This document shows positions 41,032 through 55,540 of a stretch of 62,131 nt of DNA, in pieces. Location: NCBI GenBank assembly GCA_903951425.1, contig CAJBBX010000009.1:1-62131 (forward strand), given 5' to 3'. A program made the position numbers and the translations under genes. The stretch comes from an uncultured Chthonomonas sp. GTDB taxonomy: Bacteria > Armatimonadota > Chthonomonadetes > Chthonomonadales > CAJBBX01. Within the stretch, counting starts at the first letter, position 1. Each line of letters begins with the position of its first letter. The notes under the pieces were generated by a model. That model was not told where the DNA came from. It worked only from the letters and a program-made list of their open reading frames with translations, and searched no databases.

Positions 41032-41124
41032 GGGGTTGTGCCCTGATTCTGGCACACACCTGCAACCCCGGAGGCCCCAGCGCCAAAGGCGCGGCCTGTG
41101 TTAGCCCAGGGCGTTGCCCCGGGC
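41032..41124. other. Three successive hairpins upstream of the aldolase operon
   Basis: A hairpin with arms GGGGTTG (41032-41038) and CAACCCC (41063-41069); a perfect GCGCC-AAA-GGCGC (41080-41092); and GCCCAGGGC/GCCCCGGGC (41104-41124, one mismatch). They lie between two minus-strand genes and could end the upstream transcript or form the aldolase leader. The last two resemble short palindromic repeats I have seen elsewhere in GC-rich genomes. Confidence 0.4.
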
Positions 41125-51630: not shown

Positions 51631-53088
51631 TCACCGCAGCGCCGGAAGCCGCACCGTGGCCGCGACGTAGGGCTTCAGGTCGCGCGCGTTGCCGCCCTGG
51701 ATGACGCCTACATAGAACTCGACGCCGCGCCGGCGGGCGGCCTGTGCCTGCTCGATCGTGGGGCTGCCCGTGTAGCCGTCGGTGAGGATGACGGCCTTGC
51801 GCGGCGTCTTCGCCGGAGGCAGGGCCAGCAGGTGGTCGTAGACGCACCGGATGTCGGTGCCGCCGGTGGTCCGAATCCGGCCCGCGAGCAGGTCCTGCCG
51901 CGTCACCTCGGCCACCATGGTGCTGAAGAGCCGGACCTCGATGTCGCCGTTGCGCACCAGCGGACGGAGGGCGCTCAGGAGCCAGGGCAGATCCCCGAAC
52001 ATCGATCCGCTCACGTCCAGGTAGACGAAGGCCGAGGTGCGGGGCATCAGGCGGCAGGCCGGCCGCGCCACGGCGTCGGTGTACAGCAGCGGGTCGGCTC
52101 CCCAGAGCTCGCCCCTGGCCGCGGCGGTGCGGTCGCCGGCATTGGGCTCGAAGGTGACGCGCTCGAGTGCCCGCGGCTGCACCTGCCACGAGAGTGCGCC
52201 GCCGCGCCGCCCGGCGACGATGCCGGCGCGGCGCAGCAGGGCGCGCAACCCCTGCAGGAACGAGGCCCGACGCGGCATCGGCTTGCCGAAGAGGAGTTCC
52301 TGCAGTTCGTCCCTGCCCAGCCCGGCCGCGCGGCCAAGCGCGGCGTTGGGCCACCCGGCCACCGTCCGGCCGAGCACAGCGGTGACGACCGGGTCGCGGA
52401 CGGCGGCGTCATCGGCCGGGCCGGACCCGCCGGGCCCGGTGTGGTCGCCCAGCAGCAGCGGCTCAAGGGCTTCGCCGCCCAGGGGGTCGGCTTCGGGCTC
52501 AGCGTCGAAGAGGGCGCGTACGTCGTCGTACGTCACCATGGAGGGTGTGTCGCCGGCCGCGGGGCCACTGCCATAGAGCAGTTCCATGACGGCCTGCTCC
52601 TGCGGCCCGGCGTCGTCGGCCGGTACGCAACGGGACTGATGCCAGCCCACCGGTGGCCGCAGGAGGCGTTCCGGGAAGGTTTCGGCGCAGTAGAGGCTGG
52701 TGAGAAGCTCCGTGTAGACCGCCTCGTCGAACTGACGGCAGAGGAGCGAGTTGATGACGGCGTCGAGGACGATGTTGTCCACGTCCGTCGCCCTGGGCCA
52801 GAGGCGCGTGTGGCCCAGGATGACGTGGTACAGCTCATGCATGATGAGCATGAAGAGCCGCTCGTTCGTCGCGCAGTGCTCCTCGATGAAGTCCGGGTTC
52901 ACCAGCAGGCGCGACTGGACTCCGGTCTCCACTGCGGCGGTGGCGCAGCGGTCATCCACGACGATGTCCACCAGTGAGAGCAGCGTATGCATCTCGTAGC
53001 GGGCGGCCGGCAGGACCGACATGATGCGCCAGCGCATCTTGACCGCCCTGGCTGCGTCGTCCTTCTCCCTGTCAAGCGAGTAGCTCAC
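51631..53088 (-). CDS. Metallopeptidase-like plus vWA protein, partner of a MoxR ATPase
   Basis: A 485-residue protein of the DUF2201 type. The N-terminal zincin-like domain has HELYHVILGH (84-93, HExxH plus a third His). The C-terminal von Willebrand A domain has a complete MIDAS: DVSGSM (358-363), T411 in GGTD and D437 in LTDG. Such proteins are commonly encoded with MoxR ATPases and are thought to be remodelled or delivered by them. I chose GTG at 53088 because it overlaps the previous stop as GTGA; GTG at 53097 is possible. A GAGCCG/CGGCTC hairpin (51598-51617) follows the gene. Confidence 0.82.
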   Translation of the reverse strand: MSYSLDREKDDAARAVKMRWRIMSVLPAARYEMHTLLSLVDIVVDDRCATAAVETGVQSRLLVNPDFIEEHCATNERLFMLIMHELYHVILGHTRLWPRATDVDNIVLDAVINSLLCRQFDEAVYTELLTSLYCAETFPERLLRPPVGWHQSRCVPADDAGPQEQAVMELLYGSGPAAGDTPSMVTYDDVRALFDAEPEADPLGGEALEPLLLGDHTGPGGSGPADDAAVRDPVVTAVLGRTVAGWPNAALGRAAGLGRDELQELLFGKPMPRRASFLQGLRALLRRAGIVAGRRGGALSWQVQPRALERVTFEPNAGDRTAAARGELWGADPLLYTDAVARPACRLMPRTSAFVYLDVSGSMFGDLPWLLSALRPLVRNGDIEVRLFSTMVAEVTRQDLLAGRIRTTGGTDIRCVYDHLLALPPAKTPRKAVILTDGYTGSPTIEQAQAARRRGVEFYVGVIQGGNARDLKPYVAATVRLPALR

Positions 53089-53666
53089 TGGTCGCACCCG
53101 GACGGCACGACGACGGGTTTGCTCCTGACCCGTACGCGACTGTCAATCCGGATCGGTTGGGGTAACGGTGCGAGGTTCAGTTGCTCCCGTAGCGCCTCGC
53201 TTGCCGGAGACGAGTCGCCAATTGGCTCGGCGATGGCGACGCCGCACGAGAAGAGCTGGTCCCAAGTGACCACTGGAGGGCGATCACGCAAGATGACCGA
53301 ACCGACACGACGCGACAGCGCCGCAACGGTTAGGGCCAGGTCCGTGCTGACGACGAGCGCTCCCTGCCTGCAGGGGGCGGTGATGCCGAAGCAGGCATGC
53401 ACGGCGTCAAGCCGGTTCGCGGCCTCCTCGATGGCCTGACGCGTGCAACCGACCGAGGCAGCTACGTTGAGGAAACGAGTGATGTCGCGCCCGAACGCCT
53501 TGTCGGCCACTTCCACGAGCCGCTCGCCCGGCTCCAAGATCGTTGCACGACCGATGAGCCCGGCCGCCACGCACGCCGCCCGCACCGAGAGCCACATGAC
53601 CGACCCGTGGACGGGCTCGATATCGAAGGGACGTGGTGCGGGATCACTCCCATAGCGCCATAGCAT
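53085..53666 (-). CDS. Unknown protein between MoxR and vWA genes
   Basis: A 193-residue protein not recognised. It is alpha/beta in appearance (HGSVMWLSVRAACVAAGLIG, GALVVSTDLALTVAALSRRV) with three scattered cysteines and a basic, proline-containing C-terminus. The start at 53666 has a strong GGAGGT site 8 bases upstream. It is separated from the MoxR gene by one base and overlaps the vWA gene, so it is probably a dedicated third component. No catalytic motif is evident. Confidence 0.7.
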   Translation of the reverse strand: MLWRYGSDPAPRPFDIEPVHGSVMWLSVRAACVAAGLIGRATILEPGERLVEVADKAFGRDITRFLNVAASVGCTRQAIEEAANRLDAVHACFGITAPCRQGALVVSTDLALTVAALSRRVGSVILRDRPPVVTWDQLFSCGVAIAEPIGDSSPASEALREQLNLAPLPQPIRIDSRVRVRSKPVVVPSGCDQ

Positions 53667-53667
53667 A

Positions 53668-55218
53668 TTACCTTACCTCCATATAGTGGTACGCCTTATT
53701 GAATCTCATATGCGCCCAGAGTTCATAGAACTCATTCCTCACAGACACTGGAGTACGATTTTTGTATGCGTCTGGCCTATTACACAGTAAACGGATGAGA
53801 TTGCACGCATATACAGAGCAGACCTCCGTGCCCGGCTGGGCCGCGGCGACAACCGCATCCGCAACGTCCATGGCTTGCCGGTACACGGACCGCGGCACGC
53901 CGGGGCAGGGGACGCGAGCCGTATAGGTACCAGCGGTGACCACCGGCGCCACCATCTGCGCCAAGGCGTCCCATGCCATAGCGTGGAGCTTCCGGTCACG
54001 GCGACACGCTTCGTAGATGGCCACAGCGGCTAGGAGCTTGCGCGTGTCATCGGCCGCGCCTGCCAGCCCGTCCATGATGAGCTTGGAGAGGGCGTCGTCG
54101 TCCATCTCTTCGCGGCGGGCCACGGCCTCCAGGGCGCGCTCCAGCGGGTCCTGCACGGCGAGGATGGTGCGCCAGGGGTTCTTCTCATCCAGCTGGGCCC
54201 TGGCCCAGGCGTGGCGGTGGGCGCCCAGCAGCTGCACCGGGTCGACGGGCGCGCCCGCGGCCGACTGCGGCAGGCTGTGCTGCAGCGCCAGCATGGCGGA
54301 TCCGCTCCAGTCGACGAGGAGGGCCCTCTCGTCGTCGACGGCGATGCCCAGCAGCGCGATTCGGGCGGCGTGGACGGCCAGGATGTTGCGGTGGATCATG
54401 GTGGCGCGGCGGGTTGAGACGGCGATGCCCTTGCCGGCGAGCTGCTCGAGGAGGGTAATGACGTAGTCGGCCAGGTCGGGCGGGGCGGCGGCGCTGAGCG
54501 CGGCCAGGTGGCCTTCGGCACGGGCGACCAGCTCGCCGGGAGGGGTGGCGAAGGGGTGCCGGCCGGCGAACTGGTCGCGCAGGATGGCGCGCTGCTCGGC
54601 GCCGCTCAGGTCGGACCAGCCGGGCACCGTGATGAGGAAGCTGAAGCGGTCGGCCAGGGCCGGGTCCAGCATCTCGGCGCCCAGGTAGAGATCCGGCGAG
54701 TCGGCGGCCTGCTCGGCGGTGGGCGGCGGGTTCATGGCGGCCCAGCGGTAGCGGAGGCGCTCCAGCTCGATGCCCTGCACGCGCCGCTCGTGGACGATGG
54801 GGAAGAGCTTGTTCTGCAGCTCGGGCCGCGTGCGGTTCAGCTCGTCGATGAAGACCACCTCGGCGTCCCAGATGGCGGTGGCCGTGCCGATGTAGCGGAG
54901 CGATTTGCGGTCCTCGGTCGGCATGGGGATGCCCACGAGGTCGTCGTAGTTAATGAGGCTGGCGTTGTAGAAGCGGTAGTCCAGGTTGAGCGCCTGGGCC
55001 AGCCGCTCCAGCAGGAAGCTCTTGGCGGAGCCGTGGGGTCCCACGAGCAGCATGGGCTGGCCGGAGGCCAGCGCGGCCAGCAGCACGGGCTCCTTGGCGG
55101 CCCAGCCCTCCAGCCCCAGCGGCCGCGTGAGCAGCGACGGCAGCCGCGTGCCGTCCGTCACGAGGGGCAAGCGCTCGGGCCCTCTGGCCCGCTCCTTGCG
55201 CGATGGTCGCGTCTGCAA
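53668..55218 (-). CDS. MoxR-family AAA+ ATPase
   Basis: A 516-residue ATPase. Walker A is GPHGSAKS (60-67), Walker B VVFIDE (121-126), sensor region MNP (162-164) and DPALADRF near the arginine finger (185-192). RavA/MoxR proteins act as chaperones on vWA partners. I place the start at TTG 55218, because AAGGAGG lies about 7 bases before it and all upstream in-frame starts lie in the leader RNA. The last 55 codons (about 53668-53830) are unusually AT-rich. Confidence 0.85.
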   Translation of the reverse strand: MQTRPSRKERARGPERLPLVTDGTRLPSLLTRPLGLEGWAAKEPVLLAALASGQPMLLVGPHGSAKSFLLERLAQALNLDYRFYNASLINYDDLVGIPMPTEDRKSLRYIGTATAIWDAEVVFIDELNRTRPELQNKLFPIVHERRVQGIELERLRYRWAAMNPPPTAEQAADSPDLYLGAEMLDPALADRFSFLITVPGWSDLSGAEQRAILRDQFAGRHPFATPPGELVARAEGHLAALSAAAPPDLADYVITLLEQLAGKGIAVSTRRATMIHRNILAVHAARIALLGIAVDDERALLVDWSGSAMLALQHSLPQSAAGAPVDPVQLLGAHRHAWARAQLDEKNPWRTILAVQDPLERALEAVARREEMDDDALSKLIMDGLAGAADDTRKLLAAVAIYEACRRDRKLHAMAWDALAQMVAPVVTAGTYTARVPCPGVPRSVYRQAMDVADAVVAAAQPGTEVCSVYACNLIRLLCNRPDAYKNRTPVSVRNEFYELWAHMRFNKAYHYMEVR

Positions 55219-55326: not shown

Positions 55327-55356
55327 AAAAAACCACCCGGCGCAAGGCCGCGGTGG
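55327..55356 (-). terminator. Intrinsic terminator in the MoxR operon leader
   Basis: On the minus strand, a stem of CCACC/GGTGG extended by GGC/GCC is followed directly by six U residues (55327-55332). It lies after the candidate aptamer and before the coding region, as expected for a transcriptional switch. Confidence 0.75.
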
Positions 55357-55416
55357 CTCTGGAGACGGATGGACACGCACTGCGTGTGGGACTATAGTTC
55401 GGAGGCTTGATCCTCC

Positions 55417-55503
55417 GCACATCGAGGGTTTCCCCTCAAGGCACCGTCGCCGTCTCCAGGCCGGTTGCCAGGCGCAGCGCGAACGCTGCACCATTCCTGA
55501 TGC
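55417..55503 (-). promoter_or_regulatory. Candidate S-box-like (SAM-I clan) riboswitch
   Basis: Read on the minus strand: P1 5' strand GCAUC (55499-55503), joining segment AGGAAU, P2 hairpin GGUGCAGCG-UUCG-CGCUGCGCC (55471-55492), conserved GGCAACC (55463-55469), P3, conserved GGUGCC (55440-55445), P4 hairpin with a GAAA loop (55422-55439), and P1 3' strand GAUGUGC (55417-55423). The order and the core nucleotides match SAM-I aptamers. P2 lacks the usual kink-turn and pseudoknot. UGGAGACGG in P3 (55450-55458) is perfectly complementary to CCGUCUCCA (55360-55368), just before the terminator. Confidence 0.6.
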
Positions 55504-55510
55504 TGGTAAT

Positions 55511-55540
55511 ATTGTACGGCAACGCGGCCCCTCTTGTCAA
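55511..55540 (-). promoter_or_regulatory. Sigma-70-type promoter of the MoxR operon
   Basis: On the minus strand, TTGACA (55535-55540), an 18-base spacer and TACAAT (55511-55516). Transcription should start near 55504-55507, just before the candidate riboswitch. Confidence 0.75.

Follow-up and report, generated by a model that had tools for sequence, protein, structure and literature searches.

The window, by which we mean the whole 62,131-nucleotide stretch of DNA from an uncultured Chthonomonas sp. (contig CAJBBX010000009.1) that was analysed, carries on its minus strand a structured leader followed by three genes, encoding a MoxR-family AAA+ ATPase, a 193-aa protein and an HExxH metallopeptidase-like/VWA protein (Table 1). 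The moxR gene most likely starts at TTG 55218, behind an AGGAGG sequence (55230–55225); a longer open reading frame, from 55494, would run through the leader. The ATPase matched AAA_5 with 54.9 bits (cut-off, 22) and scored just under the cut-offs of the named MoxR models (bpMoxR, 25.2 versus 27; AAA_3, 24.7 versus 27). A PDB sequence search with this protein returned midasin only, and the same search with the VWA protein returned no match. In the latter, the Pfam VWA models scored below their cut-offs; residues 294–488 of the structural model, which is weak outside this domain (mean pLDDT, 64), matched VWA domains with a Z of about 12, and the MIDAS motif, DxSxS, was invariant in 19 relatives. 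Upstream of the genes, the promoter scan detected TTGACA (55540–55535) and TACAAT (55516–55511) with an 18-nt spacer, matching the consensus at 11 of 12 positions; shuffled sequence contained matches of this quality 0.0 times on average. The leader folded more stably than 200 of 200 shuffled versions (z = −5.3). Its terminator, a hairpin of −16.9 to −19.1 kcal/mol followed by U6 at 55332–55327, lies 109 nt upstream of the MoxR start and was missed by a simple terminator scan because the stem is bulged. A previous reading of this DNA, made from the sequence alone (hereafter, the sequence-only reading), had proposed a near-consensus promoter, an intrinsic terminator and a MoxR/vWA operon behind them, and all three were borne out.

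Table 1. Features of the leader and operon on the minus strand of the window
Feature	Position	Strand	Basis or remark
Sigma-70-type promoter, TTGACA-18-TACAAT	55511–55540	−	Promoter scan
SAM-I/IV aptamer (extent of RF01725 match)	55384–55508	−	Covariance-model match and covariation
P1, 5′ strand GCAUC, pairing with GAUGU at 55423–55419	55499–55503	−	Structure and covariation
P2, 9-bp hairpin without interruption, kink-turn or PK-1; UUCG loop	55471–55492	−	Double-sided changes, 9/9 pairs
P3 with GGCAACC...GGUGCC, predicted SAM pocket; loop UGGAGAC (55458–55452)	55440–55469	−	Model match and structure
P4 hairpin	55424–55437	−	GAGGG/CCCUC
P5 hairpin, 3′ of P1	55400–55417	−	Structure and covariation
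PK-2 3′ strand at the usual position, AGUCCC	55388–55393	−	One A–C mismatch with the P3 loop
Inserted hairpin, lineage-specific, separating P5 from the second P3-loop complement	55373–55387	−	Leader comparison
CCGUCUCCAGAGCC, P3-loop complement (displaced PK-2 partner) and predicted antiterminator 3′ strand	55355–55368	−	Runs into terminator 5′ arm
Intrinsic terminator, hairpin and U6	55327–55357	−	Folding and sequence
MoxR-family AAA+ ATPase (AAA_5), TTG start	53668–55218	−	AGGAGG upstream
193-aa protein of no known family, in the gene X position	53085–53666	−	No convincing similarity to X
HExxH metallopeptidase-like/VWA (DUF2201, CoxE-like) protein, intact MIDAS	51631–53097	−	Motif and fold

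The aptamer region aligned end to end with the Rfam covariance model of SAM-I/IV riboswitches, RF01725, at 40.4 bits (E = 3.5e-5 for the 501 bases scanned), which is 0.7 bits below the gathering cut-off of 41.1; when the whole 6.08-Mb genome was scanned, the E value of this match was 1.0e-4. The SAM-I model, RF00162, gave only 21.0 bits against a cut-off of 44.4. RNAs of the SAM-I/IV class (Weinberg 2010, PMC2864571; structure, Trausch 2014, as cited in PMC6890682) have a P2 that is not split into P2a and P2b, lack PK-1 and possess P4 (PMC6890682), and the variants mix features of both families without an internal loop in P2 (PMC2864571). P5 and PK-2 are a SAM-IV feature (PMC6890682) and were also found in the RF01725 model and in the leaders of relatives. 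The window leader shares with RF01725 P1, an unsplit P2, P3 with the GGCAACC/GGUGCC pocket, P4, P5 and PK-2, together with the lack of PK-1, and differs from it in the additional hairpin that separates P5 from the strong P3-loop complement, in the predicted second role of this complement as an antiterminator strand, and in its target, MoxR/VWA. With SAM-I (S-box) it has the ligand pocket, P4 and a transcription terminator in common, but P5 and PK-2 are present, and the kink-turn in P2 and the PK-1 that mark SAM-I were absent from both sequence and structure. It resembles SAM-IV (RF00634) in P5 and PK-2, but has P4 and an undivided P2, and lacks PK-1. Ligand contacts in SAM-I numbering fall at positions 6–8, 11–12, 44–47, 57–59 and 87 (PMC6890682), and the pocket nucleotides placed by motif alignment (AUC, GA, CAAC, UGC and A) were all present in the window.

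Most of what the sequence-only reading had described was recovered, namely P1, GGCAACC, P3, GGUGCC, P4 and a closing GAUG, a plain 9-bp P2 hairpin with a UUCG loop and neither kink-turn nor pseudoknot, and a perfect 9-bp complement of the P3 loop just before the terminator (55368–55360). Its classification needed revision: the "S-box-like riboswitch" is an RNA of the SAM clan, but the covariance models placed it in SAM-I/IV, at full length though slightly under the cut-off, and not in SAM-I. Since the combination of unsplit P2, P3, P4, P5 and P3-loop complement is the SAM-I/IV set, and an unsplit P2 without PK-1, together with P4, P5 and PK-2, defines this class, the "stripped P2" is class-typical and does not represent an aberrant S-box, and the extra pseudoknot likened to SAM-IV corresponds to PK-2. 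The usual position of PK-2 reads GUCUC in leaders C100 and G092.

Covariation was assessed in 30 related leaders, mostly from the same phylum, Armatimonadota. The structure of Table 1 was paired in 82% of cells, and its covariation score was 0.234, compared with 0.106 (sd, 0.007) for shuffled alignments, none of 500 scoring as high; sliding the structures by 1–3 columns gave scores of at most 0.102. Double-sided changes were detected at all nine pairs of P2, four of five pairs of P4 and five of six pairs of P5, and PK-2 was paired in 69% of cells across the relatives. Near-identical leaders were present in two sister genomes. A separate RNA model (R1), derived from a mixed MAFFT alignment, recovered only P3 and was dropped in favour of Rfam and whole-genome scans. 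The match is formally borderline by score, but we regard the class as settled by the covariation, the near-identical sister leader and the genome-wide context: the window leader is a SAM-I/IV riboswitch of the known class, predicted to bind SAM.

The 3′ part of the leader suggested a mode of switching. A 13-bp antiterminator was predicted, in which GGCCUGGAGACGG (55462–55450) pairs with CCGUCUCCAGAGCC. When the nascent RNA was folded at lengths of 149–167 nt using ViennaRNA, P3 was replaced in the free minimum by GGCCUGGAGACGG paired with CCGUCUCCAG(A)GCC, a pairing that occupies the base of the terminator 5′ arm; at 167 nt the antiterminator fold had an energy of −79.7 kcal/mol versus −66.6 kcal/mol for the aptamer-forced fold, both computed by ViennaRNA without ligand energy. 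The same topology was predicted for the C100 and C180 leaders of the window genome, the sister leaders and G184, which belongs to another family; it was not predicted in seven leaders (G032, G022, G092b, G225, G055, G186 and G134), and the expression platform therefore varies among relatives. As we infer SAM binding and the direction of switching, bound SAM would hold P1 and P3 in place, leaving the terminator free to form and the operon off. When SAM is absent, the P3 strand and loop, GGCCUGGAGACGG, would pair with CCGUCUCCAGAGCC, which extends into the terminator 5′ arm; CCGUCUCC is expected to favour this read-through by pairing with the P3 loop. The moxR, 193-aa and VWA genes would then be transcribed.

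In a survey of 291 Armatimonadota genomes, close relatives of the window MoxR (>180 bits) were found in G002, G041, G134, G174, G184 and G186, and a SAM-I/IV element was located just upstream of the gene in all six. A MoxR alignment was then compared with one genome per GTDB species, which gave 80 loci from many phyla; cultured carriers of the operon include Cnuella takakiae and Limnohabitans sp. 2KL-51. SAM-I/IV, SAM-I or SAM-II riboswitches lay just upstream in 50 of the 76 evaluable loci, and no SAM riboswitch was found in the other 26. The positive loci came from ten phyla (Armatimonadota, Acidobacteriota, Actinomycetota, Bacteroidota, Elusimicrobiota, Gemmatimonadota, Myxococcota, Nitrospirota, Pseudomonadota and Verrucomicrobiota); most carried SAM-I/IV, six SAM-I and two SAM-II, and one scored as both. 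This count comprises gathering-threshold matches and weaker ones that were located on the same contigs and inspected directly; L131, L132 and L092 were not counted, as their matches fell on a different contig, lay elsewhere than upstream of MoxR, or were 1.9 kb distant. At the Rfam gathering threshold, 33 SAM riboswitches were detected in 53 loci, every one of them 5′ of MoxR and on the same strand. The riboswitch types were interspersed on the MoxR tree, in which labels were assigned by hand and "none" includes four loci cut at a contig end as well as the viral contig L162, which carries SAM-I/IV; this distribution therefore indicates repeated recruitment or replacement. SAM control of a MoxR operon, which had been called unexpected, is indeed surprising as to its target, but it is not a one-off. 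Among open-access papers, we found none joining MoxR/VWA with SAM riboswitches, SAM synthetase or metK. The RNA itself belongs to an established class, and it is the context that goes beyond the sequence-only reading.

The usual gene order in these loci was MoxR, X, HExxH/VWA and a divergent SAM synthetase. The last of these, a MetK paralog, was present in 44 of the 53 loci with enough sequence, and canonical metK came first in seven more (Verrucomicrobiota and one Bacteroidia MAG). Gene X, which lies between MoxR and VWA and encodes a conserved protein of roughly 150 aa, belonged to no Pfam family and gave no fold match despite a confident model (for example, L098 1754–2191; pLDDT, 84.5); the 193-aa protein of the window showed no convincing similarity to X of the related operons. 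The MetK paralog (for example, L068 7380–8474 and L083 9218–10198) scored 166 bits on the MetK model TIGR01034, whose equivalog cut-off is 309. Residues were compared in 50 paralog sequences using E. coli numbering. Like MetK, the paralog retains the ATP, metal and triphosphate residues, with H14, D16, E42, D118, D163 and K165 invariant and K17, D238, R244, K245, K265 and D271 nearly so. It differs from MetK in that E55 was kept in none of the 50 sequences and Q98 in six, K269 was replaced by His in 41 of 46, and I302 by Pro in all 46 covering sequences. We take E55, Q98 and I302 to be the methionine side of SAM synthetase, and the conserved set presumably handles ATP and triphosphate. The substitutions suggest that its acceptor specificity has changed, or that the enzyme is regulated or inactive. 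Beside two of the operons (L066 8223–9416; L068, oriented 1–979) stood genes that resemble those for DNA cytosine methyltransferases, through chance or as part of a defence island. A known defence system was considered for the operon but found no support, PADLOC yielding only a weak mad8 match for the MoxR of one relative.

Riboswitches indicate the function of the genes they control. The same operon is preceded, across at least ten phyla, by SAM-sensing RNAs of two unrelated folds (the clan of SAM-I and SAM-I/IV, and SAM-II), and we therefore place in SAM homeostasis both a large subfamily of MoxR/VWA proteins and a family of divergent SAM synthetases. Published MoxR/VWA pairs serve particular enzymes by maturing or reactivating them: iron is inserted by NorQD, inhibited Rubisco is released by CbbQO, and RavA-ViaA acts on fumarate reductase. 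The module resembles NorQ/NorD, CbbQ/CbbO and RavA/ViaA in that a MoxR AAA+ protein adjoins a VWA protein with a MIDAS, but differs from them by its SAM synthetase or divergent paralog, small protein X, HExxH motif and SAM riboswitches. By analogy, we infer that MoxR and VWA would act together as a machine that remodels SAM synthetase, driven by ATP and produced when SAM runs low, which is the simplest reading of the operon and its regulation. For the module as a whole, in at least ten phyla, we hold somewhat short of even odds that the AAA+/VWA pair remodels or activates SAM synthetase, or else that the paralog yields an adenosyl product distinct from SAM. The prediction is either a machine dedicated to remodelling or a novel adenosyltransferase; if it holds, a MoxR/VWA system would for the first time be linked to SAM metabolism. 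For the window, our main reading, to which we give a probability of roughly 0.8, is that a SAM-I/IV switch, terminating transcription when SAM is plentiful, acts on a reduced member of this SAM-regulated module, whose MoxR/VWA proteins would remodel SAM synthetase.

The window operon is a reduced member of the widespread module. The MetK paralog is absent from the window genome and genus, where only canonical metK is present (in the window genome, behind a SAM-I riboswitch on C159), and the window MoxR forms a long branch on the MoxR tree; the function of the module may therefore have drifted here, and what the riboswitch controls may be a remnant that has drifted or is decaying. Taken further, the leader could be an inherited SAM-I/IV element left over after its MetK-paralog target was lost, with the MoxR, 193-aa and VWA genes merely lying behind it. 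The missing paralog and the mismatch at the usual PK-2 position would agree with such a history, as would the sister genome G001, which keeps the leader at 92% identity as far as 55301 but lacks everything between about 55300 and 51600, the MoxR cassette included, before the epimerase gene resumes at 97.6%. We nevertheless consider this unlikely, given that three genomes have preserved an intact promoter, pocket, helices and terminator and that in most phyla the first gene behind the riboswitch is MoxR, not MetK. In G001, the intact orphan leader (L033, G001:C12, 10021–10145) is followed by repeats that replace the MoxR-193aa-VWA cassette.

Our main reading of SAM-induced termination also has to be weighed against translational action or an ON switch. 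Some relatives have no obvious terminator, and in L107 the start codon lies inside P1; in the window, however, the MoxR start is preceded by a strong terminator, with whose 5′ arm the predicted antiterminator overlaps, making this alternative improbable. In L107 (5804–5924), the P1 3′ strand of the aptamer seems to contain the MoxR start codon region (AUCAUAG/CUAUGA), which suggests direct translational control at that locus. The ligand might likewise be SAH, or a SAM analogue produced by the divergent MetK, an unusual adenosyl product being conceivable given the altered methionine side of the paralog. This is distinctly improbable, because the pocket nucleotides are those of SAM-I, the paralog is absent from the window genome, and the presence of SAM-I, SAM-I/IV and the unrelated SAM-II before the operon points to SAM itself. 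That a GC-rich, unstructured leader resembles SAM-I/IV by chance can be dismissed despite the score below the curated cut-off, as it is contradicted by the covariation, the genome-wide E value of 1e-4 and the synteny conserved across phyla.

Several loci showed additional arrangements of SAM-sensing elements. Two SAM riboswitches, in tandem or flanking a short gene, preceded the operon in L104, L105, L116, L118, L122, L140, L149 and L066, those of L118 being two copies of SAM-II. In L161 (5649–5781), SAM-I (46.5 bits) and SAM-I/IV (45.8 bits) scored about equally, and this RNA is possibly an intermediate. The contig classed as viral (L162, IMG/VR UViG_3300033064_006711) carries its SAM-I/IV element at 366–471, together with MoxR and VWA.

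Further elements were observed in the window genome and its phylum. G000:C180 carries a composite leader (L010, 7940–6839, minus strand). A SAM-I/IV element with a terminator comes first, next are a SAM-I aptamer beside a start codon and an uncharacterised 223-aa gene, and a further SAM-I aptamer then precedes a gene for an SNF2-type helicase. G001 and G002 share the pairing of SAM-I/IV with SAM-I. The window-type leader occurs a second time in the window genome (L011, G000:C100, 3136–3261), before a short gene without a known family, and there the pocket U in GGUGCC is replaced by C (GGCGCC). Many other SAM-I/IV elements of Armatimonadota, including L021, L018, L017 and L016, likewise precede short genes without a known family and not methionine genes. 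Within the window itself, an Acido-Lenti-1 RNA was detected at 41079–41123 (minus strand) with 39.6 bits, above the gathering score.
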